From: Halomonas alimentaria
GTDB lineage: Bacteria; Pseudomonadota; Gammaproteobacteria; Pseudomonadales; Halomonadaceae
Direction: 5' to 3'
DNA length: 64,000 bases
Assembly (NCBI RefSeq): GCF_009902005.1
Contig: NZ_WUTT01000001.1
Coordinates: 1,700,541 to 1,764,540, forward strand
The position numbers and the translations under genes are program-made. Numbering within the stretch: the stretch's first letter is position 1; each line of letters starts with the position of its first letter. The notes beneath the pieces are model-generated. The model was not told the DNA's origin, did not search any database, and saw only the letters and a program-made list of their open reading frames with translations. This document shows positions 22,940-61,272 of the stretch, in pieces.

Positions 22940-23401
22940 ATGTCCACCCCTCAGGCCTTCCCTGCCGCTTCCGGCGACCACTTCGCCGACGCGAATCCCG
23001 GCAAGCAGTCCCGCGGGCGCGGCGCCGCCATCATCGTCTACATGCTGTTCCTGGGCAGCGTGCTGGCGGTGGTCACTGCACCCATCGCCGTGCTGATCGC
23101 CCATTTCAAGCGTCCCGGTGCCGAGCCCTGGGTGCAGAGCCACCTGCAGTTCCAGATCCGTACCTTCTGGCTCGGCGTGCTGGGCGGCGCCGCCTTCATC
23201 GCCACCTGGCAGCTGCTGGGGCTGGCCGGCATCCCGCCCATGGCGCCCTGGGCCATGGGTTACCTCTACTTCACCGCCTGCATGATCTGGATGGTGGGGC
23301 GCTGCGCCGTGGGCATCGCCCGGCTGACCTCCAACCGCCCGATAGACAACCCGCGCAGCCTGGCCTTCGGCGGCTCCCGGGTAACCCTGACCGACGCATG
23401 A
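22940..23401 (+). CDS. COG3671/DUF4870-like membrane protein, NO-regulon member
   Basis: A 153-residue protein with a polar N-terminal 28 residues and three or four hydrophobic helices (about 29-52, 70-92, 98-120). The segment AEPWVQSHLQFQIRTFWLGVLGG matches a small predicted membrane-protein family, COG3671-like from memory, of unknown function. Its stop overlaps the norE start in ATGA, so it is translated with norE. It follows the NsrR-like site. Co-regulation and coupling suggest a part in NO reductase assembly or in tolerance of NO at the membrane; no activity can be named. Confidence 0.75.
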   Translation: MSTPQAFPAASGDHFADANPGKQSRGRGAAIIVYMLFLGSVLAVVTAPIAVLIAHFKRPGAEPWVQSHLQFQIRTFWLGVLGGAAFIATWQLLGLAGIPPMAPWAMGYLYFTACMIWMVGRCAVGIARLTSNRPIDNPRSLAFGGSRVTLTDA

Positions 23402-28914: not shown

Positions 28915-28940
28915 TGGTGTCGTTCTCCTTGATTCATCCC

Positions 28941-28972
28941 GGTCCGGCGATCCGGCGGTCCGGCGATCCGGC
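28941..28972. repeat. 16-bp tandem duplication between norC and norB
   Basis: GGTCCGGCGATCCGGC occurs twice in direct succession (28941-28956, 28957-28972) in the norC-norB gap. On the minus strand it lies just upstream of the norB ribosome site and could fold; an effect on the NorC to NorB ratio is speculation. Confidence 0.9.
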
Positions 28973-28983
28973 GTTCAGGTGGT

Positions 28984-29436
28984 TCAGCCGGCGGGGTGCG
29001 GCGGCCAGTCCTGGTCGTCGATGCCGTCGGTCCACTCGAGGAAGTCGATCAGCGCGTTCATCTCCTCGTCGCTGAAGTCGTAGGCCGGCATCTGGCGGCG
29101 GCCCTGGGTGCCCAACGGCTGGGCGCGGATCCACGCGGCCAGGCCGGCACGCGCCGCCTCGGGGTTCTGGTGGCCGCCGTAGCGTTCCCAGACGTTACCC
29201 AGCTCCGGCGCGAAATAGGCGCCCTCGCCCATGATGCTGTGGCAGTTGATGCACATGTTCTTTTCCCAGATGTGCTTGCCTTCCACGACAGACTCGGTGA
29301 GCCCCTCCTTGTCGGTGGACTTGTTGACCATGTACCAGTGGCTGTGCGCCGTCAGGGCGGTGAACAGCAGAAAGAAGAACAGCGACCCGCCATAGAAAAT
29401 ATTGCGGGCCGCCGACTTGGTGAGACCGTCGGCCAT
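28984..29436 (-). CDS. norC: Nitric oxide reductase cytochrome c subunit
   Basis: A 150-residue membrane-anchored cytochrome c: one N-terminal helix (about 14-30) and a periplasmic domain with heme site CINCHS (C62, C65, H66) and a later methionine ligand in RQMPAYDF. It brings electrons to NorB. ATG 29436 has a strong GGGGGGAAAG ribosome site; an upstream in-frame start adds an arginine-rich leader and is unlikely. A perfect FNR/DNR box and an NsrR-type dyad stand upstream. The gene opens norCBQD. Confidence 0.95.
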   Translation of the reverse strand: MADGLTKSAARNIFYGGSLFFFLLFTALTAHSHWYMVNKSTDKEGLTESVVEGKHIWEKNMCINCHSIMGEGAYFAPELGNVWERYGGHQNPEAARAGLAAWIRAQPLGTQGRRQMPAYDFSDEEMNALIDFLEWTDGIDDQDWPPHPAG

Positions 29437-41942: not shown

Positions 41943-43775
<1,833 letters not shown>

Positions 43776-43871
43776 TCACACGGCCGATGACCTTCCTGCG
43801 CAGAGAGTGGCTCAATAACGCGTATAATTCATGCTCCTTTAATGCTCTCAGGCCCTCTATCCGGGGAGACA

Positions 43872-43885
43872 TTGACCTGTATCAA
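43872..43885. promoter_or_regulatory. FNR/DNR box of nirS
   Basis: TTGACCTGTATCAA, both half-sites perfect. For nirS (minus) it predicts a start near 43837. The nirC gene is too distant for this site to serve it as a class II activator. Confidence 0.85.
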
Positions 43886-43962
43886 AGCACCGAACGGCTA
43901 CCCACAAAGGGAAATTGAGCGCTTTTGGCTTTGCTGATAAGCACAAGCATAGGAGACTTTCG

Positions 43963-43976
43963 TTGACGCCAATCAA
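43963..43976. promoter_or_regulatory. FNR/DNR box of nirC
   Basis: TTGACGCCAATCAA, both half-sites perfect. For nirC (plus) the predicted start is near 44011, 22 nt before the ATG. Confidence 0.85.
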
Positions 43977-44032
43977 TGCGCGCCGACACCCGGGCAGGGA
44001 CACTCTCGCCAGCCCTTATCTCAGGAGTCGCC

Positions 44033-44374
44033 ATGTTGCCGCCCCTTAAACTTTGCCTGTCGCTGCTGGCCATGGCCTGTGCGCTGCCGCTCGTCGCCCA
44101 GGCCGAGACGCCACTCTCCGCCGAACGCGAGGCCGAACTCGAGACCCTGCTCTATCAGGACTGCGGCTCCTGCCACGGCATGACCCTGCGCGGAGGCCTG
44201 GGCCCTGAACTGCCCAGGTCGCGCATGAATGCCTACAGCCAAGACGGCCTGGCCGCGCTGATCCTCCACGGCGTCGAGGGCACCGCCATGCCGGGCTGGG
44301 AGGGGCTTCTCACCGAGCAGGAGGCCCTGTGGCTCGCCGACCACCTGCAGAACGACAACCCCCTGGATGAGTAA
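44033..44374 (+). CDS. nirC: NirC, small periplasmic c-type cytochrome
   Basis: A 113-residue cytochrome c with a signal peptide (MLPPLKLCLSLLAMACALPLVAQA split near residue 24) and heme site CGSCHG (C44, C47, H48); methionine ligand probably in GTAMPGW. NirC supports maturation of NirS or donates electrons to it in other denitrifiers. CAGGAG precedes ATG 44033; an in-frame start upstream would bury the signal peptide. It is cotranscribed with nirF, 27 nt downstream, and divergent from nirS, unlike the single collinear operon of Pseudomonas. Confidence 0.9.
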   Translation: MLPPLKLCLSLLAMACALPLVAQAETPLSAEREAELETLLYQDCGSCHGMTLRGGLGPELPRSRMNAYSQDGLAALILHGVEGTAMPGWEGLLTEQEALWLADHLQNDNPLDE

Positions 44375-44401
44375 CGTCCTTCCCGATCACAAGGAGTGAC
44401 C

Positions 44402-45604
44402 ATGATCGCCCCTGCCCTTCTCAAGCCCCTCGCCGCCGTCTCGCTGCTCGCCCTGCTAGCCGGCTGCCAGGCAACCCCGACCACCGAGCTGCGTGGTACC
44501 GGCGACCTCGGCGTGGTGGTGGAGCGCGCCACCGGCAGCCTGGCGGTGGTGGATACCAGCGAACGCCGCATCCTCGACCGGGTCGAGGGCCTCGGGGATC
44601 TCTCCCACGCCTCGGTAAAGTTCTCCCGTGACGCCCGCTACGCCTTCGTGTTCGGCCGCGATGGCGGCCTCAGCCGGGTCGACCTGCTTACCGGCGAGAT
44701 CACCCACCGGGTGATCCAGTCCGGCAACAGCATCGGCGGCGCCGTCTCCCAGGATGGCGCGCTGGTGGCGGTGGCCAACTACGAGCCGGGCGGCGTGAAG
44801 CTATTCGACAGCGAGACCCTGGAAGAGGTAGCGGACATCCCTGCCACCTGGGTCGACGAGAAGGGTGAGGAGCAGCGATCCAAGGTGGTGGGCCTGGTGG
44901 ACGCCCCCGGCAACCGCTTCGTCTACAGCCTGTTCGAGGCCGGCGAGATTCACCTGATCGACATGCAGGGCGATACCCCCGAGGTGACGCGCTTCACCGA
45001 TATCGGAAAGGAGCCCTACGATGCCCTGATCGGCCCCAACGGGCGCTACTATATCGCCGGGCTGTTCGGCGAGGATGGCCTGGCGATGCTCGACCTGTGG
45101 CACCCGGAGCAGGGCGTCACGCGTATCCTGCCCGACTATGGCCGCGGCGAGGAGCGCCTGCCGGTCTACAAGATGCCCCATCTGGAGGGCTGGACCCTGG
45201 CCGGCGACGAGGCCTGGCTGCCGGCGGTAGGCCGCCACGAGGTGCTGGTCGCCGACAGCGACGACTGGTCACTGGTCGACCGTATCCCGGTCCATGGCCA
45301 GCCGATCTTCGTGATGCGCCGCCCCGACGAGCGCCAGATCTGGGTCAACTTCGCCCACCCCGACAACGACGTGGTGCAGGTGATCGATACCGAGTCCCGC
45401 GAGGTCGTCGCCACCCTCACCCCCGGCGAGGCCGTTCTGCACATGGAGTTCACCCCCAAGGGAGAGCAGGCCTGGGTCTCGGCCCGGGACAGCGACCGGG
45501 TGGTGGTCTACGACACCCGCACCCTGGAGGAGGTCGCACGGCTCGACAGCGAGTCGCCCAGCGGCATCTTCTTTACCGACCGGGCGCACCGTATCGGGCT
45601 CTGA
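44402..45604 (+). CDS. nirF: NirF, heme d1 biosynthesis lipoprotein
   Basis: A 400-residue d1-type propeller protein without heme c. The N-terminus is a lipoprotein signal with lipobox LLAGC (C22), so it should be anchored to the membrane in the periplasm. Blade segments such as TGSLAVVDTSERRI and VNFAHPDNDVVQVIDTES resemble NirS and NirN. NirF binds late heme d1 intermediates and is needed for NirS maturation. ATG 44402 is preferred to a GTG two codons earlier. A strong terminator follows. Confidence 0.93.
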   Translation: MIAPALLKPLAAVSLLALLAGCQATPTTELRGTGDLGVVVERATGSLAVVDTSERRILDRVEGLGDLSHASVKFSRDARYAFVFGRDGGLSRVDLLTGEITHRVIQSGNSIGGAVSQDGALVAVANYEPGGVKLFDSETLEEVADIPATWVDEKGEEQRSKVVGLVDAPGNRFVYSLFEAGEIHLIDMQGDTPEVTRFTDIGKEPYDALIGPNGRYYIAGLFGEDGLAMLDLWHPEQGVTRILPDYGRGEERLPVYKMPHLEGWTLAGDEAWLPAVGRHEVLVADSDDWSLVDRIPVHGQPIFVMRRPDERQIWVNFAHPDNDVVQVIDTESREVVATLTPGEAVLHMEFTPKGEQAWVSARDSDRVVVYDTRTLEEVARLDSESPSGIFFTDRAHRIGL

Positions 45605-45625
45605 GGACCCGGGCACCCGAAGCAA

Positions 45626-45651
45626 GGAAGGCGCCCCGCGGGGCGCCTTCC
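45626..45651. terminator. Bidirectional terminator between nirF and the P450 gene
   Basis: A perfect 12-bp stem GGAAGGCGCCCC / GGGGCGCCTTCC with a 2-nt centre sits in the 69-bp gap between the convergent genes. Confidence 0.8.
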
Positions 45652-45673
45652 GTCATCATGGCCTGACCTGCGA

Positions 45674-46831
45674 CTAGCGCCGCACGTGCAGCGGCACCTC
45701 GGAGTAGCCGCCGGCGGGGTAGAGGGCGCGCACCGCGGGACGTGCCGGCAGCAGGGCGATATCGACGGTGGCGTCGAGCAGCGCGTCCATGAAGTCGTGA
45801 AGCTCCATTCGCGCCAGGGGCGCCCCGGGGCAGACGTGGATGCCGGCCCCGTAGAGCAGGTTGTCCTTGGGGTCGCGATCCAGACGCACCTCGTCGGGGT
45901 CACCGAACACCGCCTCGTCGCGGTTGGCCGAGCCCCACAGGAGCGTCAGGCGATCGCCGGCCTCGAGACGGCGGCCGCCGATCTCCACCGGACGGGTAGC
46001 AATGCGCCGGTTGGACATCAGAGGCGCATCGAGGCGCAGGATCTCGTCGATGGCCGCCGGCAGCAGGCGGCGATCGGCACGCAGCCGCCCCTGAAGCTCC
46101 GGATCGGCGGCCAGGTAGCGCATCAGGATGCCGATGCTTGCCGAGATGGTGCCGAGTTCCCCCACCGTCCAGTTGCGCAGGATGCTGACGATTTCCTCGT
46201 CGGCGAGCGCACGCTCCTCCACCGTCTCGTTCATGATCCGGGTGGTGACGTCGTCCGGCGCGTCATCGCCAGCCGCTCGGCGGAGTTCCAACTGTTCGCG
46301 GATCACGCCATCGAATTCCAGCGCCAGCTCGCCCAGCGCCTCGCGGTCCTGGGCCAGGGTGGCGGCCTGCTGGCGCTTCACCCAGGCGCGCAGCGGCTCG
46401 TGGAGCGCGGCGGGCCAGCCCATGAAGGCGCACTGGATCTCCAGGGCGAAGTCCTGTCCCATCTCGGCCATCGCTTCTACCTCACCGTCGGCGGGCAGAC
46501 GGTCGACCACGGCCTCGGCGATAGCACGGCATTGCGGCGCAAACTCGGCCATGGCCTCGGGGCCGAAGTAGGGCTCGATGAGTCGCCGGAAGCGAGTGTG
46601 CTCGGGCGGGTCCATGGCGTTGGGCACCGACAGGTGGCGGCTCGCCGCGTTGCTGAAGGTCTCGTGGTCCTCGAGCACGCGCATCACGTCCGCATGGCGG
46701 AACAGCGACCACTGCAGGTAGTCGCTGAAGGCCACCGGGCAACGGTGGCGCATCTCGTCATAGGCGCTGATCTGGTCGTTCAGCGCATCCGCGGCGCGCG
46801 GGTCCCAGTCCTGCTGGCGCGTATCGCTCAT
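45674..46831 (-). CDS. Cytochrome P450 in the denitrification regulon
   Basis: A 385-residue soluble P450. The heme-thiolate loop is LLYGAGIHVCPGAPLAR with C334, and the K-helix ExxR is EILR (263-266). The I-helix reads VGELGTISASIG (223-234): a threonine is present, but the acid normally just before it is glycine. Oxygen activation may therefore be unusual; fungal P450nor (NO reductase) also has an altered I-helix. An FNR/DNR box with 9 of 10 matches is centred 71 bp upstream. It is convergent with nirF. No ferredoxin or reductase partner is adjacent. Substrate unknown. Confidence 0.9.
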   Translation of the reverse strand: MSDTRQQDWDPRAADALNDQISAYDEMRHRCPVAFSDYLQWSLFRHADVMRVLEDHETFSNAASRHLSVPNAMDPPEHTRFRRLIEPYFGPEAMAEFAPQCRAIAEAVVDRLPADGEVEAMAEMGQDFALEIQCAFMGWPAALHEPLRAWVKRQQAATLAQDREALGELALEFDGVIREQLELRRAAGDDAPDDVTTRIMNETVEERALADEEIVSILRNWTVGELGTISASIGILMRYLAADPELQGRLRADRRLLPAAIDEILRLDAPLMSNRRIATRPVEIGGRRLEAGDRLTLLWGSANRDEAVFGDPDEVRLDRDPKDNLLYGAGIHVCPGAPLARMELHDFMDALLDATVDIALLPARPAVRALYPAGGYSEVPLHVRR

Positions 46832-46895
46832 GTCATCTCCTGAAAGAATAAGAGAGTCTGTTTCGCCATGAGAGCATACGCCCTCGAAGGCTGCA

Positions 46896-46909
46896 TTGAC
46901 GCAAGTCAG
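46896..46909. promoter_or_regulatory. FNR/DNR box of the P450 gene (9 of 10)
   Basis: TTGACGCAAGTCAG differs from the consensus only in the last base. On the minus strand a class II start would be near 46861, 30 nt before the P450 start. It lies between the P450 start and the marR stop. Confidence 0.75.
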
Positions 46910-46924
46910 CGGCCCCTGACTGGC

Positions 46925-47338
46925 CTAGCGGAATTCGGGCCAGCCGGGCAGGCAGAACTCTTCCTGCAGGTGGCGAAGCTCAGGTTGGTGCTGCTCGGCG
47001 ATGCGGCTGGCAAGCTCGGCACCGCGAGGCAACAGGTGGACCTCGATGCAGCGACGATCCTCGTGGCTCGGGCGACGTTCCACCAGGCCCAGTTGTTCGC
47101 AGCGATCGATCAGCGCCACCGTACCGTGGTGCTTGGCCTGAAGCCGCTCGGCCAGCTCGCCAACCGACGCCCATTCGCGCCCCTCGAAGCCCAGCAGGTG
47201 CAGCAGCAGCTGGTACTGCAGCGGCGTCAAGCCATGACGGCGACAGATATCCTCACTCTGGCGCAGGAAGCAGCGCAGCTGATAGCGGAAGTGAGAGAGG
47301 CGTTGGAAGTCCTGCTTAGTGAGGGCGTCATCGCTCAT
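46925..47338 (-). CDS. MarR-family transcriptional regulator
   Basis: A 137-residue winged-helix regulator: dimerisation helix RLSHFRYQLRCFLRQSEDICRRHGL, HTH GELAERLQAKHHGTVALIDRCEQLG, and wing RRPSHEDRRCIEVHL. It is codirectional with and 93 bp upstream of the P450 gene. It is divergent from the Yip1-like gene, with a promoter and an ATCA-N5-TGAT repeat between them. Two cysteines (C23, C31) in the first helix could make it redox-sensitive. Ligand and targets are not known. Confidence 0.87.
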   Translation of the reverse strand: MSDDALTKQDFQRLSHFRYQLRCFLRQSEDICRRHGLTPLQYQLLLHLLGFEGREWASVGELAERLQAKHHGTVALIDRCEQLGLVERRPSHEDRRCIEVHLLPRGAELASRIAEQHQPELRHLQEEFCLPGWPEFR

Positions 47339-47379
47339 GAAGCGGTATCCGAATGTGCATGGGCAGCCACAATCGCTCC

Positions 47380-47408
47380 TTGACAGCCAAGGAAGCGAAG
47401 CCTAAAGA
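47380..47408 (+). promoter_or_regulatory. Sigma-70 type promoter of the Yip1-like gene
   Basis: TTGACA (47380-47385) and TAAAGA (47403-47408) are separated by 17 bp. An inverted repeat ATCA-CAACA-TGAT at 47421-47433 follows in the start region and could bind the divergent MarR protein. Confidence 0.5.
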
Positions 47409-47462
47409 TTAAACAATAATATCACAACATGATACAACTTCCCCGCCGACGAGGAGACCACC

Positions 47463-48029
47463 ATGAACCCCCTGACCGTCATCAAGCTGCCCTTTACCCG
47501 CCAGGCGGGCTGGAAGAGCCTGCAGCAACGCAAGCCCTCGATCCCGGTGCTTGCCTGGGGCCTGGTGCTGCCCATGTCGCTGCTGCCGCCGGTGCTGCTC
47601 TACTATGCCGGCACTCACTATGGTGACGGTTTCGTCATGGGCTTCGCCGACCGGGAGTGGCGCTTCATCACCACCATCCTGTTCCTGGCCGAGTTGCTCA
47701 CCTTCTTCGTGATGGGCTGGTTGATTCACGCCGTGGTCAACGGCACGCGGGAACTGTCCATCGACTACCACGATGCCTACCTGCTGGCAGCCCTCGCACC
47801 GCTGCCGCTGTGGTCCTCGGCGATCGTGCTGCTGATCCCCAGCCTGCTGCTCAACACCCTGGCGGTACTGGTGGCCCTGGGTATCTCCTGCAGTCTGGTC
47901 TACCACGGCCTCCAGGCCCTGTGCGAACGACGCGATAATGACGTCAACACCATGTCTGCGGCCTATACCATCATGGCGGCCGGGGTGCTGGCCTGGGGCC
48001 TGCTGATGGCAATCGTGTGGGCCTACTGA
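47463..48029 (+). CDS. Yip1/DUF1282-like inner membrane protein
   Basis: A 188-residue protein with five helices (about 28-48, 65-90, 100-122, 124-142, 160-186). VLAWGLVLPMSLLPPVLLYYAG and HDAYLLAALAPLPLWSSAIVLLIP fit the bacterial Yip1 domain family seen in several proteobacteria, function unclear. GAGGAG lies upstream of the ATG. It has a promoter of its own and is followed 103 bp later by hmp on the same strand, so read-through into hmp is possible. Confidence 0.75.
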   Translation: MNPLTVIKLPFTRQAGWKSLQQRKPSIPVLAWGLVLPMSLLPPVLLYYAGTHYGDGFVMGFADREWRFITTILFLAELLTFFVMGWLIHAVVNGTRELSIDYHDAYLLAALAPLPLWSSAIVLLIPSLLLNTLAVLVALGISCSLVYHGLQALCERRDNDVNTMSAAYTIMAAGVLAWGLLMAIVWAY

Positions 48030-48080
48030 GCCGAACGCCATGATGCGGCGCAGCATCGGAGGCTGGAATCCGCGGGAATT

Positions 48081-48103
48081 AACATGTAATTTACATGCAC
48101 CTT
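48081..48103. promoter_or_regulatory. Candidate NsrR operator of hmp
   Basis: The site reads AACATGTAA-TTTAC-ATGCACCTT, each half matching 8 of 9 to AANATGYAT-N5-ATRCATNTT. A 15-bp palindrome CATGTAA-T-TTACATG (48083-48097) overlaps it. It ends 29 nt before the hmp start. No FNR box is nearby. Confidence 0.65.
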
Positions 48104-48132
48104 AAAAAACATCCCCGACACGGAGCCCCTCG

Positions 48133-49302
48133 ATGCTGACCCAGGAGCAGGAACAACTCGTCGCCGCCACCGCGCCGGTGGTGGCCGAGCACCTTGACGC
48201 CATCACCCAGCGCTTCTACCCGCTACTGTTCGAGCGCTATCCGCAGGTAAAGCCGCTGTTCAACCAGGCACACCAGGCCGACGGCGGCCAGCCGCGGGCA
48301 CTGGCCGGCGCCGTGCTGGCCTATGTGCAGTTGCGTCACGATCGCGAGAAGGTGCGCGAGACTCTGGCCACGGTGGTCGGAAAGCACGTATCCCTGGACA
48401 TCCGCCCCGAGCACTATCCCCTGGTCGGCGAATGCCTTATGGCCGCCATCGGCGAGGTGCTGGGCGACGCCGTGAGGCCGGAGATCGCCGCCGCCTGGGA
48501 GGGCGTCTACGAGGAGCTGGCCGGACTGCTCATCGAGCTGGAGGAGTACCGCTACGGCAACTTCGAGCAGTCCCCCGGCGGCTGGCGTGGCCCCCGCGAG
48601 TTCCGCATTGCCGCCGTTCGCCAGGAGAGCGCGGTGATCCGCTCCTTCGTGCTCGAGCCGGTGGATGGCGGCCCGGTCGCCGGCCATGAGCCTGGCCAGT
48701 ACATCGGTGTCAGGCTCACCATCGATGGTGAGCCGGTCTATCGACACTACAGCCTCTCGGACCTGCCGAACGGCGAGAGCTACCGGATCTCGGTGAAGCG
48801 CGAGCCCCAAGGGCGTGCCAGCCGTCATCTGCATGACGCCATGGACGTGGGTGACACCCTGGCATTGCTGCCCCCGGCCGGCGAGTTGACCCTGATAGAG
48901 GGTGACGAGCCGCTGCTGCTGGCCAGCGGCGGTGTCGGCCAGACCCCGCTGCTGCCCATGGCGCGCCAGGCGCTGGCCCAGGGTCGCCGGGTGGTCTACC
49001 TGCATGCCGCCCTGGATGCCGAGCATCACGCCTTCCGCGACGAGGTCGCGGCCCTGGCCGAGGCGCACCCGGAGCGGCTCCGGGCCGTGAGCATTCATGA
49101 GGCCGGGGATGATGCCGAGCATATCGGACGCGTGGATCGCGACCTGCTGGCAAGCTACCTGCCCGAGGGCGGCCGCTGCTACTTCGTTGGCCCCCAGGGG
49201 TTCATGACCGCCGTTGACCGGGCCCTGGCCGAACTCGGCGTACCCGCCGAACGCCGTCATTTCGAGCACTTCGGCCCCTCGCGTCCCCTCGACGCCGCCT
49301 GA
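48133..49302 (+). CDS. hmp: Flavohemoprotein, nitric oxide dioxygenase
   Basis: A 389-residue three-domain protein: globin (about 1-140, with the proximal histidine region KHVSLDIRPEHYPLVGECL), FAD-binding domain (RHYSLSDLPNGESYRISVKRE) and NAD-binding domain (LLASGGVGQTPLLPMARQAL, then CYFVGPQGFM). It oxidises NO to nitrate with oxygen and NADH in the cytoplasm. An NsrR-like site lies upstream and a strong terminator downstream. Its control without an FNR box suits use when NO appears in the presence of oxygen. Confidence 0.95.
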   Translation: MLTQEQEQLVAATAPVVAEHLDAITQRFYPLLFERYPQVKPLFNQAHQADGGQPRALAGAVLAYVQLRHDREKVRETLATVVGKHVSLDIRPEHYPLVGECLMAAIGEVLGDAVRPEIAAAWEGVYEELAGLLIELEEYRYGNFEQSPGGWRGPREFRIAAVRQESAVIRSFVLEPVDGGPVAGHEPGQYIGVRLTIDGEPVYRHYSLSDLPNGESYRISVKREPQGRASRHLHDAMDVGDTLALLPPAGELTLIEGDEPLLLASGGVGQTPLLPMARQALAQGRRVVYLHAALDAEHHAFRDEVAALAEAHPERLRAVSIHEAGDDAEHIGRVDRDLLASYLPEGGRCYFVGPQGFMTAVDRALAELGVPAERRHFEHFGPSRPLDAA

Positions 49303-49325
49303 GTCTCGACCGCTCCGCACGACAA

Positions 49326-49356
49326 GACGACGCCCCGGCCATGCCGGGGCGTCGTC
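49326..49356. terminator. Bidirectional terminator between hmp and the SdhB-like gene
   Basis: A perfect 14-bp stem GACGACGCCCCGGC / GCCGGGGCGTCGTC with loop CAT lies between two convergent genes. Confidence 0.85.
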
Positions 49357-49384
49357 ACTGCGTTTGTGGCGATCGGGATAGGTC

Positions 49385-50092
49385 TCAGCTGCCACGTGCC
49401 AGCAGCATCGCCTTGATATGGCCGATGGCCCGCATCGGGTTGAGCCCCTTGGGACACACCCAGGTGCAGTTGGCGATCTGTCGGCAGCGAAACACGCTGA
49501 AGGGGTCGTCGAGCTCGACCAGGCGCTCGTCGGTGGCGGTGTCCCGGCTGTCGATCAGGAACCGATAGGCCTGGATGAGGCCGGCCGGGCCGATGTACTT
49601 GTCGGGGTTCCACCACCAGGAGGGACAGGCCGAGCTGCAGCAGGCGCACAGGATGCATTCGTAGAGGCCATCGAGCTTCTCGCGATCCGCCGGGCTCTGG
49701 CGGCGCTCGGTGGCGGTGGGCGGCTCATCGTTGATCAGCCAGGGGCGGATCTTCTCGAACTGGCGGAAGAACAGCGTCTGGTCGACGACCAGGTCGCGGA
49801 TCACCGGCATGCCGGGAAGCGGACGCAGGGTCAGGGTATCGCCGCTGCCCAGCACCTCCTCCACCGGCGTGATGCAGGCCAGGCCGTTCTTGCCGTTGAT
49901 GTTCATGCCGTCGGAGCCACACACCCCCTCGCGACACGAGCGCCGATAGGCCAGGGTGGCATCCTGCTGCTTCAGGTGTTCGAGCACGTCGAGCACCATC
50001 GCCTTGCGGAAACGCTCCTCGACTTCCAGGCTTTCCATCCGCGGCAGGTCGTCCCTCTCGGGGTGATAGCGATAGAGCCGTACCTTGATCAT
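49385..50092 (-). CDS. Orphan SdhB-like iron-sulfur protein under an NsrR-type operator
   Basis: A 235-residue protein matching succinate dehydrogenase subunit B along its full length. The [2Fe-2S] ligands are in SCREGVCGSDGMNINGKNG, the [4Fe-4S] set in CILCACCSSACP, and the [3Fe-4S] set in FRCRQIANCTWVCPKGLNP. The quinone-site tryptophan region PSWWWNPDKY is kept, but the histidine after the first [3Fe-4S] cysteine (E. coli His207) is arginine. No sdhA, sdhC or sdhD is nearby. It is a monocistronic gene behind an almost ideal NsrR site. I infer an NO-induced spare subunit; ATG 50092 is used. Confidence 0.9.
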   Translation of the reverse strand: MIKVRLYRYHPERDDLPRMESLEVEERFRKAMVLDVLEHLKQQDATLAYRRSCREGVCGSDGMNINGKNGLACITPVEEVLGSGDTLTLRPLPGMPVIRDLVVDQTLFFRQFEKIRPWLINDEPPTATERRQSPADREKLDGLYECILCACCSSACPSWWWNPDKYIGPAGLIQAYRFLIDSRDTATDERLVELDDPFSVFRCRQIANCTWVCPKGLNPMRAIGHIKAMLLARGS

Positions 50093-50123
50093 CACGCCCC
50101 CAGTTCGGCCTCGACTCGACTAA

Positions 50124-50146
50124 AAGATTTATTATGAATACATCTT
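50124..50146. promoter_or_regulatory. NsrR-type operator of the SdhB-like gene
   Basis: The site reads AAGATTTAT-TATGA-ATACATCTT, close to AAGATGYAT-N5-ATRCATCTT, within a longer dyad whose arms CTAAAAGAT and ATCTTTTAG are perfect (50120-50150). It ends 31 nt before the gene. This is the best full-consensus site after that of norC. Confidence 0.75.
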
Positions 50147-50210
50147 TTAGGCTAGCCCCGATGCCGCTGCCGTCAAGGGCGTGACCTCGGGACCACTACG
50201 GCACGCTGCA

Positions 50211-54923: not shown

Positions 54924-55919
54924 ATGGAGCTCGTCTGCCCCGCCGGTAACCTGCCCGCCCTGAAGCGCGCCGTGGATGAAGGGGCCGATGCCGTCTACTT
55001 CGGCTTTCAGAACACCACCAACGCCCGCCAGTTCGCCGGCCTCAACTTCACCGACAAGCGCGCCCGGGAGGGCATCGACTACGCCCACGCCCGCGGCAAG
55101 CGAGTCTTCTGCGCCATCAACACCTACCCTCAGCCGGATGGCTGGGCGATGTGGACCCGCGCCGTGGACCAGGCCGCCGACCTCGGCGTCGATGCCCTGA
55201 TCATGGCCGACATGGGGCTGCTCGACTACGCCGCACGCCGCCACCCGGACCTCGCCCGCCATCTCTCGGTGCAGGGCTCGGCCACCAGCCACGAGGCGCT
55301 GCGCTTCTATCACGACCAGTTCGGCATCAAACGCGCCGTGCTGCCCCGGGTGCTCTCCATCACCCAGGTGCGCGACCTGGCCAAGCAGAGCCCGGTGGAA
55401 CTCGAGGTATTCGCCTTCGGCAGCCTGTGCATCATGGCCGAGGGGCGCTGCTACCTGTCGTCGTATCTCACCGGTGAATCGCCCAACACCCGCGGCGTCT
55501 GCTCGCCGGCGGCCCATGTGCGCTGGGAGGAGACCCCGGAGGGCCTGGAGTCACGACTCAACGGCGTGCTGATCGACCGCTACGGCGAGGGCGAGAACGC
55601 CGGCTACCCCACCCTGTGCAAGGGGCGCTTCGAGGTGGGCGGCGAGACCTACCACGCCATCGAGGAGCCCACCAGCCTGAACACCCTGGAGCTGTTGCCG
55701 GAGCTCAAGGATCTGGGCATCGCGGCCGTCAAGATCGAGGGGCGCCAGCGCAGCCCGGCCTATGTATCAAAGGTCGCCGGCATCTGGCGCCAGGCCCTGG
55801 ATCGCCTGGAACGCGCCCCGGGCCGCTTCCATACCGAACCCGCCTGGATGACCGGCCTCGGCGAGGTCTCCGAAGGCAGCACCACCACCCTGGGCGCCTA
55901 CGAGCGCCGCTGGAAATAG
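54924..55919 (+). CDS. ubiU: UbiU, oxygen-independent ubiquinone hydroxylation protein
   Basis: A 331-residue U32-peptidase-like protein that works with UbiV to hydroxylate the ubiquinone ring without oxygen. The four [4Fe-4S] cysteines have the expected layout: LCIMAEGRC (two, 7 apart), then RGVC 17 residues on, then PTLCKGRF. The start MELVCPAGNLPALKRAVDEGADAV is typical. GGAGG lies upstream of the ATG. It is 10 nt from ubiV. It makes ubiquinone available for nitrate respiration. Confidence 0.94.
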   Translation: MELVCPAGNLPALKRAVDEGADAVYFGFQNTTNARQFAGLNFTDKRAREGIDYAHARGKRVFCAINTYPQPDGWAMWTRAVDQAADLGVDALIMADMGLLDYAARRHPDLARHLSVQGSATSHEALRFYHDQFGIKRAVLPRVLSITQVRDLAKQSPVELEVFAFGSLCIMAEGRCYLSSYLTGESPNTRGVCSPAAHVRWEETPEGLESRLNGVLIDRYGEGENAGYPTLCKGRFEVGGETYHAIEEPTSLNTLELLPELKDLGIAAVKIEGRQRSPAYVSKVAGIWRQALDRLERAPGRFHTEPAWMTGLGEVSEGSTTTLGAYERRWK

Positions 55920-55929
55920 GAGAGAGCCC

Positions 55930-56850
55930 ATGTCCGCTACCCCCACGCTCCAGCTGTCGCTCGGCCCGGTGCTCTTCTACTGGACCCGCGAACACTACGC
56001 CGACTTCTATCGCGAGGCCGCCGACTGGCCGGTGGAGATCGTCCACCTGGGTGAGTCGGTCTGCTCGCGGCGCCGCGACATGAAGCTCGACGACTGGCTT
56101 GGCATCGGCCGCGAGCTGACCCAGAGCGGCAAGCAGGTGGTGCTCTCGAGCCAGACCCTGATCGAGTCCGAGGCCGACCTGCGCGACCTGCGCAAGCTGT
56201 GCGACAACGGCGAGTTCCTGGTCGAGGCCAATGACCAGAGCGCCCTGCAACGCCTCTCGGCGGCGGGCCAGCCCTTCGTGGCCGGTGCCGCTCTCAACCT
56301 CTACAACCCGGCCACCCTTGCCGTGCTCTCCCGCGCCGGCATGCAGCGCTGGCAGGCACCGGTGGAGATGTCCCGGGACGACCTCGCCCGCCTGCTGGAG
56401 GACTGCCGCGAGCAGGGGATCGAGGCCCCCTGCGAGGTGTTTGCCTACGGCCACCTGCCGCTGGCCTGGTCATCGCGCTGCTTCACCGCGCGGCGCTACC
56501 AGAAACCCAAGGACCGCTGCCAGTTCGTCTGCCAGAAGCACCCGGAGGGCCTGGCCCTGCGCTCCCAGGAGTCCCAGCAGGTATTCACCCTGAACGGCAT
56601 CCAGACCCTCTCGGGGGCCTGCCAGGACCTGCGCCACGAGGTGCCGGACATGGCCGGGATGGGCGTCGGCGTGACACGCCTGAGCCCGCGCCCCGAGGGC
56701 ATGGCGGAGGTGGTCACGGCCTTCGATGCCGCCCGCCGCGGCGAGCTGCCCACCCCCGACCCTCTCAGCCTGGTCGACGCCGAGATCTGCGACGGCTACT
56801 GGCACGGCCGCCCCGGCATGGACCACAGCCGAGCCGCCAGCCTGGGGTGA
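55930..56850 (+). CDS. ubiV: UbiV, oxygen-independent ubiquinone hydroxylation protein
   Basis: A 306-residue partner of UbiU in the same U32 family. The first cluster cysteine is in SVCSRRRD and the other three in SSRCFTARRYQKPKDRC-QFVC, matching the UbiV pattern (one early, three late). GDVFAYGHLPLAWSSRC-like context is present as CEVFAYGHLPLAW. Its stop overlaps a possible GTG start of the radical SAM gene that follows, so the three genes form one operon. Confidence 0.93.
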   Translation: MSATPTLQLSLGPVLFYWTREHYADFYREAADWPVEIVHLGESVCSRRRDMKLDDWLGIGRELTQSGKQVVLSSQTLIESEADLRDLRKLCDNGEFLVEANDQSALQRLSAAGQPFVAGAALNLYNPATLAVLSRAGMQRWQAPVEMSRDDLARLLEDCREQGIEAPCEVFAYGHLPLAWSSRCFTARRYQKPKDRCQFVCQKHPEGLALRSQESQQVFTLNGIQTLSGACQDLRHEVPDMAGMGVGVTRLSPRPEGMAEVVTAFDAARRGELPTPDPLSLVDAEICDGYWHGRPGMDHSRAASLG

Positions 56851-56855
56851 GCGCC

Positions 56856-57596
56856 ATGGTGATCCCCCTGGTCCCCGAGCCCGGCGCCGCGATCCGTCTG
56901 CCTATTGCCGGCTTCGAGGCCAGGGACGACCACGCCTTTCCGGGGCGCCGGTCGGCGTTGGTCTACCTGCAGGGTTGTCCGCTGCAGTGCGGCTACTGCG
57001 AGACGGCGAGCAGCATGGGGCCGGCCCGCCGCGCTGCGGCGGGGGAGTGGGATGCCATCGAGGGGCTGCTGGCGGCCCGGGTCGGCGAGCTGGACGCCGT
57101 GGTGTTCAGCGGCGGCGAGCCCACCCTGCACCCCGACCTGCCCGCCGCCGCCGACGCCTGCCGGTCACTCGGACTGGCGGTGGGGCTGCACACCGCCGGC
57201 CCCTACCCGGAGCGCCTGGAGCGGCTGCTGCCGCGACTCGATTGGGTTGCCCTGGACACCAAGGGGCGCGGCGCCGACTTCGACCGCGTCGCCGGTCGCC
57301 CCGGCATCTGGCGCCAGCACGCCCTGAGCCTCTCGCTGCTGCTGGAGGCCGGGGTGCCCTTCGAGTGCCGCACCACACTGCACTGGCGCGACTTCTCCCT
57401 CGACGACCTCGAGCTGCTGGCCATGACCCTGGCCGACTGTGGGGTCCGCCGCTACGCCATCCAGCTCGCCCGCCTGGAGCGCTGCCTGGACCCGGCCTAC
57501 CGCGACGCCGTCGAGGACGCCCCGCCCCGGGAGGCGCTGGAGACCCTGATACGCCGGCTGCGCCGCCACTTCGCACAGGTCGAGCTGCGCGGCTGA
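56856..57596 (+). CDS. NrdG-like anaerobic RNR-activating radical SAM protein
   Basis: A 246-residue radical SAM protein: LQGCPLQCGYCET carries the CX3CX2C cluster motif, FSGGEPTLHP the SAM-binding glycines. It resembles the longer class of anaerobic ribonucleotide reductase activators. ATG 56856 has GGGGTGA 5 nt upstream; GTG 56847 with a 4-nt overlap of ubiV is the alternative. No class III reductase (nrdD) is in the window; the neighbour is the class II enzyme NrdJ, which needs no activase. The true partner may be elsewhere, or the protein may modify something else. Confidence 0.82.
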   Translation: MVIPLVPEPGAAIRLPIAGFEARDDHAFPGRRSALVYLQGCPLQCGYCETASSMGPARRAAAGEWDAIEGLLAARVGELDAVVFSGGEPTLHPDLPAAADACRSLGLAVGLHTAGPYPERLERLLPRLDWVALDTKGRGADFDRVAGRPGIWRQHALSLSLLLEAGVPFECRTTLHWRDFSLDDLELLAMTLADCGVRRYAIQLARLERCLDPAYRDAVEDAPPREALETLIRRLRRHFAQVELRG

Positions 57597-57612
57597 AGCC
57601 CGCGCCAAGACG

Positions 57613-57650
57613 ACATCGCCCCGGGCCACTCTCGTGACCCGGGGCGATGT
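57613..57650. terminator. Bidirectional terminator between nrdG-like gene and nrdJb
   Basis: A perfect 13-bp stem ACATCGCCCCGGG / CCCGGGGCGATGT with a 12-nt loop lies between convergent operons. Confidence 0.8.
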
Positions 57651-57685
57651 GTGCTTCGACTGACGTTCAGTGCCTGGCGCTTAGC

Positions 57686-58438
57686 CTAGCCACACTTGGA
57701 CCAGCCGCAGCCAGAGTAGCAGGTGGGGCAGCCGTCCATCATGATCAGCTCGCCGTTGCACTCGGGGCAGTGGCCGACCACGGTGGGGCCGTCGCCCTTG
57801 GCATGGGCGGCCTCCTCTGCCTTGCGCTCGGCCTGCTCGATCTCCTCGGCGGTGGGCGGCACCCACAGGTGGCCGCTGGCCTGGCGCTGGGCGTAGCGGG
57901 CGACCAGCTCCTCCACCGGCACCTGGTTGCCGTCCTGGTCGAGGAAGCCGCGGCGGTAGAGGATCTGCTGGATCGACCAGGCGATGGCCGCCACCTCGGA
58001 GTCGTGGAACACCGGCTTGCCCCAGCGGTTCATCCCGCAGCGCACCAGGCCCTTGTCCCAGGCCACCTTGCGCAGGTCGGCCACCGCCTGGGTGACGTAG
58101 CCGCCGCGGGCGGCCAGCGACAGGCTGCGCATGGTGGCGGTGATCCACTGGTGCTCGCTGGAGAGCTGGCCGGAGGGGAAGAAGAACTCCACCGGACGCT
58201 CGATCACCACCCGCTTGCCGTTGAGCACGCCCTCCACGGGCATGAAGGAGACCAGCAGGTAGACCTTCTTGCGGCCCTCGGCGCCGACGTAGGAGATCTT
58301 CTCCGACACGGCCTCCAAGGTGCCCTCGGGACGCGACGGGATGCGCACCGTGAGCGGGTTCTCCTCGGGCAGCGGCGGCTCTTCCACCGCCTTCTTGACA
58401 CTGTAGGAAACGATCTTGGAATTGATCTCGACGGCCAT
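57686..58438 (-). CDS. nrdJb: NrdJb, small component of class II ribonucleotide reductase
   Basis: A 250-residue protein that corresponds to the separate C-terminal piece of B12-dependent ribonucleotide reductase in Pseudomonas relatives. The N-terminal part is a TSCPD-like domain (SSEHQWITATMRSLSLAARGG). The C-terminus has the redox cysteines GHCPECNGEL and GCPTCYSGCGWSKC that re-reduce the active site. ATG 58438 has GGAGGAG upstream; longer frames add a proline-rich leader. It follows nrdJa by 189 bp that contain the dispersed repeat. Confidence 0.88.
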   Translation of the reverse strand: MAVEINSKIVSYSVKKAVEEPPLPEENPLTVRIPSRPEGTLEAVSEKISYVGAEGRKKVYLLVSFMPVEGVLNGKRVVIERPVEFFFPSGQLSSEHQWITATMRSLSLAARGGYVTQAVADLRKVAWDKGLVRCGMNRWGKPVFHDSEVAAIAWSIQQILYRRGFLDQDGNQVPVEELVARYAQRQASGHLWVPPTAEEIEQAERKAEEAAHAKGDGPTVVGHCPECNGELIMMDGCPTCYSGCGWSKCG

Positions 58439-58566
58439 CAGGGGGCTCCTCCGGAAAGTTGTTGGGTGGCACTGGGCATCCATCGCTCGGGGCTGATCCG
58501 GCGAAGAGCCTGCGAGGAGGCGCTGTAAACCCATCCCTGGGCGCTACCGACGCCATCCCTGGCGTA

Positions 58567-58600
58567 GGACCTCCTCTTCGGCTCTTCCCCGGCGCCCCTT
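58567..58600. repeat. Dispersed 34-bp intergenic repeat, copy 2
   Basis: It matches the copy at 26639-26672 in 31 of 34 positions and lies in the nrdJa-nrdJb gap, again downstream of a minus-strand gene in an operon and in the same orientation. This recurrent placement inside operons is notable. Confidence 0.8.
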
Positions 58601-58627
58601 GCTAAAGGCAACCAGGGAAACAATGGC

Positions 58628-60739
58628 TTACCACTTGCCATAGGTGCCTTCCTTCAGCGCGTCATAGAGGTTCGCCGCGTTGTGCTCCTCGCCGTCGTAG
58701 ATGACCTTCTCGTCACCGGCCAGCTCCACGCTCTCGCCATTCTCCAGCTCGAAGACGTAGGTGGTGTTCTTGAGGTCATCCTCGCGCACCAGCACGCCCT
58801 GGAAGGCCTCCGGATTGAAGCGGAAGGTGGTACAGCCCTTGAGCTTGCTCTGGTAGGCGTCGAGGTAGAGGTCCTTGAACTCCTCGAAGGGGAACTCGGT
58901 GGGCACGTTCACCGTCTTGGAGATCGCCGAGTCGACCCAGGCCTGGGCGGCGGCCTGCACCGCCACGTGCTGCTTGGGGCTCACCGCGTCGGCGGTGATG
59001 AAGTAGTCGGGCAGGTCGCTCTCCACGGCGTCGGCGGCGATGAAGTGGCGGTAGGCCGCCAGCTCGAAGGAGACCACCTCGACCTGCTCCTTGGTCTTCT
59101 TGCCCGACTGGATGACGTTGCGGAAGTAGCGGTGCGAGAACGACGGCTCGATCCCGTTGGAGGCGTTGTTGCCCAGCGACAGCGAGATGGTGCCGGTCGG
59201 CGCGATGGAGCTGTGGTGGGTAAAGCGCGCACCATGCTCGGCGAGCTGGGCCACCAGCTCAGGCTCCACCTCGGCGACCTTCTGCATGTAGCGGCTGTAG
59301 CGCGCATGCAGGATGCGACCGGGCACCTTGTCGCCGATCTCGTAGCCGTCCTTCTTGAGCTCCGGGCGCTCGCGCAGCATCTTCGGGGTGATCTCGTAGT
59401 CCTCGGCCAGTGCCGGGGCCATGCCCTTCTCGCGGGAGAGTTCCAGCGCCTGCTTCCAGCCCTCGATGGCCAGGTTGCGGCTCACCTCCTCGGTGAAGGC
59501 CAGCGACTCCGGCGAGCCGTAGGGGATCTTGAGCATGGTCAGGGTGGAGCCCAGGCCCAGGAAGCCCATGCCGTGGCGGCGCTTGGCCTCGATCTCGCGG
59601 CGCTGGCCCTCCAGGGGCAGGCCGCTGATCTCCACCACGTTGTCGAGCATGCGGGTGAAGATCGCCACCACCTGGCGGTAGCGCTCCCAGTCGAAGCGCG
59701 GCTTCTTGCCGAAGGGGTCGATGACGAAGCGGGTCAGGTTGACCGAACCCAGCAGGCAGGCGCCCTCGGGCGGCAGCGGCTGCTCGCCGCAGGGGTTGGT
59801 GGCGCGGATCTCCTCGCAGAACCAGTTGTTGTTCATCCGGTTGACCTGGTCGATCAGGATGAAGCCCGGCTCGGCGTAATCGTAGGTGGAACGCATGATG
59901 GTGTCCCACAGCTCGCGGGCCTTGATCACCTCGACGATGCGGCAGGCCACGCGGCCCTCGGCATCGACGGTATAGCCCTCCTCCACCACCGGCCAGTCGC
60001 GGTAGATCAGCTCGTTCTCCTGGACGTCATCCTTCTCGCCCGGGTGCAGCGGGAAGGCCAGCGGCCAGTCGGTGTCGTTCTTGACCGCCTCCATGAACTC
60101 GTCGGTGATCAGCAGGCTGAGGTTGAACTGGCGCAGGCGGCCCGCCTCGCGCTTGGCCTCGATGAACTGGCGCACATCGGGGTGGCCGACGTCGAAGGTG
60201 CCCATCTGGGCACCGCGGCGGCCGCCCGCCGAGGCCACCGTGAAGCACATCTTGTCGTAGATATCCATGAACGCCAGGGGGCCGTTGGTGCCGGCCCCGG
60301 CGCCGAACACGAAGGCGCCCTTGTGGCGCAGGGTGGAGAAGTCGTAGCCGATGCCGCAGCCCGCCTTGAGGGTCATGCCGGCGTCCACCACGGAGTCGAG
60401 GATATCGTGCATGGAGTCGCGGATGGTGCGCGACACCGTGCAGTTGATCAGGCTCACCGCCGGCTTGTAGGCCTCGGCGCCGGCATTGGACATGATGCGC
60501 CCGGCGGGAATGGCGCCATTCTCCAGCGCCCAGCGAAACTTCGGCAGCCAGGCGTCGGCCTGCTTGCCTTCCACCGCGGCCAGCGCCCGGGCCACGCGAT
60601 CCCAGGTGGCAGTCACGTCCTGGTCCACGGCCTTGCCGTGACGGTCCTTGAGGCGGTACTTGGAGTCCCAGATGTCGCGGGACGGCCCCTGCAGGGGCAC
60701 CTCGTTGGATGACTTCACTGCCTTGGTGGAAGTGCTCAT
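58628..60739 (-). CDS. nrdJa: NrdJa, adenosylcobalamin-dependent ribonucleotide reductase
   Basis: A 703-residue class II catalytic component that makes deoxynucleotides with B12 and no oxygen requirement. ATP-cone-free N-terminus, SLINCTVSRTI (redox cysteine), LKAGCGIGYDFSTLR, the active-site loop RATNPCGEQPLPPEGACLLGS with the thiyl cysteine, and the substrate loop HHSSIAPTGTISLSLGNNASNGIEP are visible. The C-terminal redox tail is absent and supplied by NrdJb. ubiT ends 38 nt upstream on the same strand, so ubiT-nrdJa-nrdJb probably form one anaerobic operon. Confidence 0.94.
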   Translation of the reverse strand: MSTSTKAVKSSNEVPLQGPSRDIWDSKYRLKDRHGKAVDQDVTATWDRVARALAAVEGKQADAWLPKFRWALENGAIPAGRIMSNAGAEAYKPAVSLINCTVSRTIRDSMHDILDSVVDAGMTLKAGCGIGYDFSTLRHKGAFVFGAGAGTNGPLAFMDIYDKMCFTVASAGGRRGAQMGTFDVGHPDVRQFIEAKREAGRLRQFNLSLLITDEFMEAVKNDTDWPLAFPLHPGEKDDVQENELIYRDWPVVEEGYTVDAEGRVACRIVEVIKARELWDTIMRSTYDYAEPGFILIDQVNRMNNNWFCEEIRATNPCGEQPLPPEGACLLGSVNLTRFVIDPFGKKPRFDWERYRQVVAIFTRMLDNVVEISGLPLEGQRREIEAKRRHGMGFLGLGSTLTMLKIPYGSPESLAFTEEVSRNLAIEGWKQALELSREKGMAPALAEDYEITPKMLRERPELKKDGYEIGDKVPGRILHARYSRYMQKVAEVEPELVAQLAEHGARFTHHSSIAPTGTISLSLGNNASNGIEPSFSHRYFRNVIQSGKKTKEQVEVVSFELAAYRHFIAADAVESDLPDYFITADAVSPKQHVAVQAAAQAWVDSAISKTVNVPTEFPFEEFKDLYLDAYQSKLKGCTTFRFNPEAFQGVLVREDDLKNTTYVFELENGESVELAGDEKVIYDGEEHNAANLYDALKEGTYGKW

Positions 60740-60777
60740 TCGGATGGCTCCGGAAGAAGTTCGTTAATCGAAAAAAT

Positions 60778-61272
60778 TCAGTTCGTACGTCTCGCCAGTC
60801 GCTCCAGGCGAACCAGCAGTTCACCGAAGGGCCCCTGGGCCAGGCCCTCCTCGCGACCGTCGAGCAGGTTCTTGACCATCAGGCCCAGTTCGGTGTCGCC
60901 CTCGATCAGCAGCCGGCGCTGAAAGAACAGCGCATCGGGGTCCTCGCGCCGGGTGGCCAGGCAGAGAAACTCCCGCCAGCCACCGCGGATAGTGGCCTCG
61001 CCGGGCTCGGTGCACACCGCCAGTCGCTCGCCCTCCAGGGTGAGGGTCAGCGCCACGCCGATGTCCTCGATGGCCAGGGTGATGCGACGTCCCTCCAGGG
61101 CGTCGAACTCCCCCTCGGCCAGGGGCTCGGCGAAGGTGCGGTTGAGCAACGGTTCCACCAGGCGGCGCTTGAGACCGACCGGCACGCGCGGGTCGAGGGC
61201 GCGAATCAGGCGGGCGGGTGCGGGAGGACGCGGCAGGGCGTGTAACGGTAAAGGCAACAACGGCAGGGACAT
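60778..61272 (-). CDS. ubiT: UbiT, SCP2-domain accessory factor of anaerobic ubiquinone synthesis
   Basis: A 164-residue protein with a proline-rich start and an SCP2 lipid-binding domain (LEGRRITLAIEDIGVALTLTLEGERL, GWREFLCLATRREDPDALFFQRRLLIEGDTELGL split by normal family spacing). It is the YhbT/UbiT family member that presents ubiquinone intermediates to UbiU and UbiV. ATG 61272 has AGGAG about 8 nt upstream; a longer frame adds an unsupported leader. A weak FNR-like site stands upstream. It is unlinked from ubiUV by about 3.2 kb. Confidence 0.9.
   Translation of the reverse strand: MSLPLLPLPLHALPRPPAPARLIRALDPRVPVGLKRRLVEPLLNRTFAEPLAEGEFDALEGRRITLAIEDIGVALTLTLEGERLAVCTEPGEATIRGGWREFLCLATRREDPDALFFQRRLLIEGDTELGLMVKNLLDGREEGLAQGPFGELLVRLERLARRTN

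Follow-up and report, generated by a model that had tools for sequence, protein, structure and literature searches.

The cytochrome P450 encoded within the denitrification island of Halomonas alimentaria is, as judged by sequence comparison, a member of a distinct family that is carried by denitrifying and nitrate-respiring bacteria and has been spread by horizontal transfer. The conserved I-helix suggests that the active site of this family may have been rebuilt so as to fit NO or a related nitrogen compound rather than O2. Although it is plainly a P450, the family and its setting are apparently undescribed.

The window (i.e. the whole stretch of 64,000 nucleotides that was analysed) contains an island of narGHJI, narK and narXL; norCB and norQ/norD; nnrS; nirN-nirE-nirJ-nirHGLD-nirS; nirC-nirF; and hmp, followed by ubiUV, nrdD and ubiT. 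Genes were named from gene calls and from family scans of ten products, and we take the remaining names from recognition of the sequences. The features required here are as follows.

4988–5725, minus strand: Crp/Fnr-family regulator beside nar (Crp/Fnr-type family matches, none over cut-off)
27559–29436, minus strand: cNor-type NO reductase, from gene calls; presumably norCB, by sequence recognition
41943–43673, minus strand: nirS, the cytochrome cd1 nitrite reductase that produces NO (family scan and gene calls)
44402–45604, plus strand: cytochrome d1-type propeller (Pfam Cytochrom_D1), convergent with the P450 gene; taken to be nirF from position and recognition
45674–46831, minus strand: cytochrome P450, 385 aa, with I-helix RNWTVGELGT (E225, G227, T228), EILR at 263–266, and C334 followed by P335
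46896–46909, no strand assigned: FNR/DNR-type box TTGACGCAAGTCAG, matching 9 of the 10 positions of TTGAYN4RTCAA, its centre 71–72 bp before the P450 ATG
46925–47338, minus strand: MarR-family regulator (Pfam MarR_2), just upstream of the P450 gene and co-directional with it; a recurrent neighbour
47463–48029, plus strand: Yip1-domain membrane protein (family scan), a recurrent neighbour of MarR and P450
48133–49302, plus strand: flavohaemoglobin (hmp), NO detoxification (NCBIfam PRK13289, 429.3 bits, just under the cut-off of 432)
54924–56850, plus strand: ubiU-ubiV, oxygen-independent ubiquinone synthesis, preceded by the same type of box; recurrently found beside P450 genes of this family

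The MarR and Yip1 pair (46925–48029) recurs by the P450 gene in Halomonas, Pseudomonas and Stutzerimonas. A gene for an SdhB/FrdB-like iron-sulfur subunit lies at 49385–50095; the gene calls around it include no further recognisable sdh gene. Loci of Marinobacter, Pseudomonas and Cognatazoarcus also have a gene of this kind close to the P450. The anaerobic block at 54924–61272 comprises ubiU-ubiV, a queE-like gene, nrdD and ubiT, with an FNR/DNR-type box before ubiU; the UbiV family is also named among the neighbours of other P450 loci. A structured RNA in this region was rejected, there being no Rfam match in 43500–50200.

The P450 gene is a complete ORF, separated from the convergent nirF by a gap of 69 bp that holds the palindrome GGCGCCCCGCGGGGCGCC. 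Its product has a single Pfam domain (PF00067, 64.5 bits against a cut-off of 22.8), the motifs VGELGT at 223–228 and EILR at 263, and the heme ligand Cys334, and gives Z of about 40 to P450s in the fold search, as expected for a member of the superfamily. The ORF call, the Pfam match and the motif positions thus bear out the initial annotation of a complete P450 convergent with nirF. An AlphaFold2 model (pLDDT 89.3, pTM 0.90, weak at 65–77) has, by fold searches, the predicted fold of an ordinary bacterial P450 of monooxygenase type. The best solved matches share 19–31% identity and include CYP125, CYP109, CYP107/113 and CYP134 proteins. P450nor was not among the matches listed (60 of 513 sequence matches, and 50 fold matches in each list), which says nothing by itself. 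Peroxygenases of the CYP152 type have an Arg-Pro in the I-helix; this is not at the aligned place in the window P450, and that assignment was rejected. The genome itself (3.29 Mb in 17 contigs) contains no match to the protein besides itself at E 0.001, and it is the sole PF00067 match at 1e-10. The closest P450 loci, among the best 80 of 217 relatives, are those of Halomonas icarae, H. shengliensis and others.

The I-helix of the window P450 reads G224-E225-L226-G227-T228. By contrast, position 225 in 59 control P450s is A (30) or G (29), while position 227 is D (32), E (14), H (12) or G (1), i.e. D, E or H in 58 of the 59. The glycine and the acid have therefore been swapped. The controls were drawn from top Pfam matches and chosen regions. 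Alignment was restricted to P450s of more than 300 aa, 59 of the 60 found, and includes a few genes twice, in a short and a long locus. It had been claimed that glycine replaces the acid preceding the I-helix threonine. G227 is indeed found there, but the acid has not merely been lost, since E225 lies two residues earlier.

The family loci are the best 80 of the 217 relatives. The segment RN[W/F]TVGE[L/V][G/A/S]T, in which the threonine is not immediately preceded by an acid, is present in all 81 family copies, i.e. 80 loci plus the window; 79 loci and the window were read by the gene caller, and locus L028, which it missed, was read by translation. The altered I-helix noted in the initial annotation is consequently a fixed trait of the family. 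The copy in L093 (genome G051) reads RNWTAGELGT, and those in genomes G028, G078, G186 and G555 read TVGE[V/I]GT. In other P450s an acid-alcohol pair is used to protonate bound O2; this pair (D/E-T in the I-helix), which marks the O2-activating monooxygenases, is missing from all 81 copies. Among 63 aligned members E225, T228 and P335 are invariant, and position 227 is G in 48, A in nine and S in six. A proline after the heme cysteine occurs in one of the 59 controls. Further residues that are fixed or nearly so in the family and rare in the controls include R219, N220, W221, T222, C101, Q133, W139, N274, R275 and Y327; by analogy with the numbering of P450cam we take it that N220 would face the substrate pocket. 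The signature of the family can be written RNWTVGE-x-[GAS]T together with C-P-G at the heme cysteine.

The box at 46896–46909 lies between the P450 gene and the co-directional MarR gene; an operon transcribed from the MarR promoter alone was therefore rejected. The window contains 13 sites matching at least 9 of 10 positions of TTGAYN4RTCAA, compared with 1.6 expected (and a maximum of three in 20 Markov shuffles). Four are inside genes, while nine are intergenic, lying before narK2, narK1, the gene at 22940, norC, nnrS, nirS/nirC (two), the P450 and ubiU. The distance of the box from the P450 start (71–72 bp) matches those at narK2 (56), narK1 (72), nnrS (70) and ubiU (66). No sigma-70-like promoter was found in 45550–47460, and the class II spacing given in the initial annotation is putative. 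The regulator encoded at 4988–5725, whose class we infer, is a candidate for the protein that binds the box.

The box is conserved among relatives in the Halomonas clade, as expected for a member of an FNR/DNR regulon. The looser sequence NTGAYN4RTCAN lies within 200 bp upstream of 22 of the 26 P450 genes, compared with 97 of the 517 others in these loci (p 4e-12); before the P450 it is mostly 66–73 bp from the start codon. It is retained where the Halomonas P450 gene has been relocated, lying not by nirF but by nnrS (L004), norCB (L019, L020 and L021) or narXL (L023), although in L021 it is further upstream. Outside Halomonas enrichment is weak (7 of 54 P450 copies compared with 42 of 848 other genes, p 0.02); an NnrR/FixK-like TTGAGNNNNCACAA precedes three Mesorhizobium copies (3/54 against 5/848). 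The regulatory evidence is thus strong in Halomonas and weak elsewhere.

The P450 gene moves about, yet it has landed by nar, nir, nor, nnrS or ubiUV in several lineages. Neighbours and boxes were counted over 80 rows (26 of the Halomonas clade, including the window, and 54 others, L028 being left out). At least one core gene (nar, nir, nor, nnrS, ubiUVT or hmp) is found no more than 9 kb from the P450 in 25 of the 26 Halomonas-clade copies and in 16 of the 54 others, the latter compared with none of 36 unrelated P450s (Fisher p 1e-4). The 36 are those controls for which longer flanks were available; contig ends truncate several of these flanks, and some of the family loci likewise. About half of the 36 came from regions of NorB- or NarG-bearing genomes. 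The remaining 38 of the 54 have no core gene within 9 kb, although the contig is short in some cases and nirK and nos are absent from the marker set, the probes being window proteins.

Within the Halomonas clade the P450 gene is convergent with nirF, or in other cases beside nnrS or norCB. A second lineage of the P450 (L044 and L059), which branches separately and groups with that of Halioglobus (L060), lies behind nirN-nnrS in Halomonas. In Cognatazoarcus (L036) norCB is beside the P450; nnrS adjoins it in L064 and is 33 bp away in L093; and the order in L094 is nar-narXL-ubiT-P450-ubiVU. Some Marinobacter (L076, L077 and L096) have nar with ubiUV by the P450, but three others (L056, L062 and L067) do not. 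The gene stands ahead of moeA-narGHJI in Mesorhizobium (L071 and L080), adjoins nirK in Ciceribacter (TIGR02376, 325.6 bits, cut-off 296.3) and forms the order P450-moaB-nnrS in Shinella. Plasmids of Paraburkholderia and Caballeronia carry narGHJI-narK-orf-P450-PAS, with genes for NnrS, hemerythrin and Rrf2 beyond this in the Paraburkholderia plasmid. On two Burkholderiaceae plasmids (L167 and L173, 8394–8804 in each) the gene between narK and the P450 encodes 136 aa and is annotated 'ribonucleotide reductase subunit alpha'; the L167 product matches no Pfam family at 1e-4, so that this annotation looks doubtful. MarR, with or without Yip1, accompanies the P450 at five loci outside Halomonas as well as in most Halomonas.

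The arrangement of neighbours differs between lineages, which argues for repeated recruitment. Neighbours at the non-Halomonas loci were tallied by Pfam and NCBIfam for 98 of 101 upstream and 98 of 104 downstream proteins, the overlong and very short being left out. The list of the 25 commonest neighbour families includes no redox partner on either side of the P450, and no universal partner gene. Close relatives are not all monooxygenases outside denitrification loci, the case that the initial annotation had set against its own proposal, since copies adjoin denitrification genes; the neighbourhood analysis that it had called for shows the P450 tracking denitrifiers in Alpha-, Beta- and Gammaproteobacteria. 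Its placing of the P450 in the denitrification regulon is upheld by the box and by the genomic company, and predicted membership of a denitrification/nitrate-respiration regulon is well supported.

The association extends to whole genomes. In a sample of 244 genomes of the order, the source genome included, 14 have the P450 at E 1e-60. NorB is found in 35 of the 244, divided as 11 of the 14 carriers and 24 of the 230 others (p 3e-8); NarG is in 60 of the 244 and 11 of the 14 carriers (p 2e-5), and UbiU in 59 and 12 respectively (p 1e-6). All p-values given here treat related genomes as independent. In a sample of the phylum the P450 is present in five of 398 genomes, four of which have NorB, compared with 70 of the 398 overall; most NorB genomes therefore lack the P450. 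The two samples overlap, with carriers G000, G060, G093 and G102 in both.

Among 50 carrier genomes reached via the loci, 37 have NorB, compared with the 35 of 244 and 70 of 398 in the two samples. This set excluded the Halomonas-clade loci, L034 (whose genome is that of L024), L046, L061, L063 and L068, and included L044 and L059. The 13 without NorB contain NarG (nine), NirK (six) and NirS (four), none being without all three, so NorB, NirK/NirS or NarG is present in 50 of 50, a count for carriers alone with no baseline. All four nirS carriers lacking NorB are metagenome-assembled genomes, whose gene content may not be complete. NirK in the absence of any cNor or qNor NorB at E 1e-30 is found in Zobellella (L042, L047 and L057) and Mesorhizobium (L071, L078 and L080). 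According to the portion available of a 2014 survey, 35% of nirK genomes and 3.6% of nirS types lack nor (PMC4250227), and NorB-less nirK carriers are therefore unremarkable by themselves.

More distant relatives lack the full signature. Carriers in the order sample divide by motif into clade A (10 genomes, seven with NorB) and clade B (four genomes). Clade B (L086, L087, L089, L090 and L091, together with L171 on a Deinococcus plasmid) has 37–47% identity and the segment RNWT[G/A]GDLGS, a swap that resembles that of the family with D at 225 and G at 227. No denitrification genes were seen within about 5 kb flanking the clade B copies. NorB is nevertheless present in all four of its order-sample genomes, and so the distant clade also tracks NorB. 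The L171 copy adjoins siroheme and nitrite/sulfite reductase genes and a TIGR04053 radical SAM gene. A 45% identical relative without the signature (I-helix RNWIAGHGT) is encoded on a cyanobacterial plasmid of Sphaerospermopsis (L172, 8001–9140). Family members L046, L061 and L063 are found in metagenome-assembled genomes labelled Actinobacteria and Bryobacterales (Acidobacteriota), reflecting either transfer beyond the Proteobacteria or mis-binning.

How might such a protein function? Our tentative proposal is that the family is made under denitrifying conditions and acts on NO or on NO-derived species. The P450 would be made at low oxygen while NO is being produced. Its acid-alcohol pair would have been dismantled, with the acid moved two residues earlier in a polar I-helix (R219-N220-W221-T222), and because of this altered site and the NO that would surround it we propose that the heme-thiolate binds NO. 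Supplied with electrons by NAD(P)H or a housekeeping ferredoxin, it could then reduce NO (to N2O or nitroxyl) or transfer an NO-derived group, and would constitute a soluble cytoplasmic NO-handling enzyme working beside the membrane NorCB, Hmp and NnrS. An NO or NO-derived ligand is favoured by the loss of the pair in 81 copies, the polar I-helix, the predicted anoxic expression, and the company of NorCB, NnrS, Hmp and hemerythrin. Several findings speak against it: the weak enrichment of the box outside Halomonas, the 38 of 54 non-Halomonas copies with no core gene nearby, the 13 of 50 carriers without NorB, the many NorB genomes without the P450, clade B with its similar swap away from denitrification genes, the relative L172 that lacks the signature, and the predicted fold of monooxygenase type. 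Moreover, NorB is already present in most carriers, where an NO reductase would be redundant. This redundancy, and the relocated acid, which might serve O2 chemistry with changed proton delivery, set both the tentative standing of the NO proposal and the lower weight that we give to a conventional monooxygenase.

Such a monooxygenase would apply what little O2 there is, with E225 donating protons from its new position, to an organic substrate (e.g. a membrane lipid, or a quinone-related or aromatic compound) needed in the shift to nitrate respiration. Members of the MarR class often sense small organic ligands, and the frequent MarR neighbour would suit this role, as would the recurrence of ubiUV and ubiT. 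The fold and sequence are closest to those of substrate-hydroxylating P450s, and the I-helix acid is displaced rather than absent. Yet no copy retains the acid-alcohol pair, the polarity of the I-helix is unusual and the gene is predicted to be expressed under anoxic conditions, and we regard this explanation as rather unlikely, if a serious one. The polar I-helix and the occurrence with NO-producing genomes would be consistent with a reductive or nitrating P450 that strips nitro or nitroso groups from organic nitrogen compounds (as XplA does with RDX), or nitrates or nitrosates a small molecule with NO (like TxtE). But among the 25 neighbour families listed as most frequent, none with a biosynthetic or catabolic role is conspicuous, the 385 aa with one Pfam domain leave no fused flavodoxin of the XplA type, and the TxtE model scores 81.5 bits with the window P450, far under its cut-off of 500 bits; we think this improbable.

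Less probable still is an NO sensor, carrier or scavenger without turnover, in which the heme-thiolate would bind NO in order to buffer or signal. Genes for NnrS, Hmp and hemerythrin among the neighbours, and the lack of a redox partner in the families listed, would fit such a role, but the whole catalytic-looking I-helix is strongly conserved and there is no signalling domain. Finally, this might be an ordinary P450 hitchhiking in the accessory regions of versatile Proteobacteria, its link to denitrification incidental, as the 38 of 54 non-Halomonas copies lacking a nearby core gene could suggest. This was already disfavoured and we give it very little weight: none of the 36 unrelated P450s lies near core genes, NorB is concentrated in carriers (11 of 14 versus 24 of 230, p 3e-8, uncorrected for relatedness), landing sites recur in several lineages and the box is conserved through relocation.

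Returning to the proposal of NO handling, a more specific version, which we hold to be doubtful, is that denitrifying Proteobacteria own a soluble NO reductase of P450 type that arose independently of fungal P450nor via the exchange of the I-helix glycine and acid. It would act as a cytoplasmic NO sink, and possibly as a route from NO to N2O in those nirK or nirS carriers where no cNor or qNor was found (such as Zobellella and some Mesorhizobium). In the available portion of a computational study, a heme-thiolate model alone takes intermediate I of P450nor to N2O (PMC10743073), so that an independent origin is plausible.

If NO is indeed turned over by this family, surveys that score NO reduction in genomes by norB only would overlook an enzyme which, though found in a minority of nitrate-respiring bacteria, spans many lineages, and certain nirK or nirS genomes lacking norB would contain an N2O source that goes unseen. 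NO chemistry would then have arisen a second time on the P450 scaffold, and the family would provide a natural test of the purpose of the I-helix acid. Even with an organic substrate, one would not expect a family of P450s to be linked to anaerobic respiration. The gene offers a single, clean deletion target in laboratory strains of Halomonas or Stutzerimonas.

The main texts of papers on the denitrification clusters of Marinobacter (PMC6152468) and Halomonas (PMC8014003), as far as available, contain no mention of a P450, and in the accessible text of another report a Hyphomicrobium P450 is named with sox-tusA genes (PMC12423496). Full-text searches of open-licence papers, within the text that these provide, found no description of the P450 family. 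The nearest is the proposal for Nitrosocosmicus, where according to the extracts available a P450 is suggested on indirect evidence, and is unproven, as an NO reductase (PMC6775971). Set side by side by description, both are prokaryotic P450s with a proposed role in NO chemistry, but Nitrosocosmicus is an archaeal ammonia oxidiser whose P450 is induced at low pH under aerobic conditions. The same extracts describe the fungal and prokaryotic candidates for P450 NO reductases as polyphyletic (PMC6775971).

CYP125, CYP109 and CYP107-113 are among the best sequence and fold matches and have the same overall fold as the window P450, but in the alignments shown they keep A-G-x-E-T in the I-helix, unlike the family. 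We know of no P450 of these groups from a denitrification locus. XplA (CYP177) and TxtE are comparable as P450s with nitrogen-oxide chemistry; XplA is a flavodoxin fusion that acts on RDX, while TxtE nitrates with NO and sits in a toxin cluster. The window P450 differs from XplA in having no fusion, and from TxtE in its low score with the TxtE model. The fungal NO reductase P450nor (CYP55), which turns 2 NO into N2O with electrons taken directly from NAD(P)H, has no acid before the I-helix threonine; it resembles the present family in its heme-thiolate and in its link to denitrification, and may do so in the non-acidic residue. The analogy drawn in the initial annotation is at most partial, since the residue before the threonine is non-acidic in the family but a glutamate is fixed two residues before the G, A or S; this glutamate, and the proline that follows the heme cysteine, distinguish the family from P450nor.
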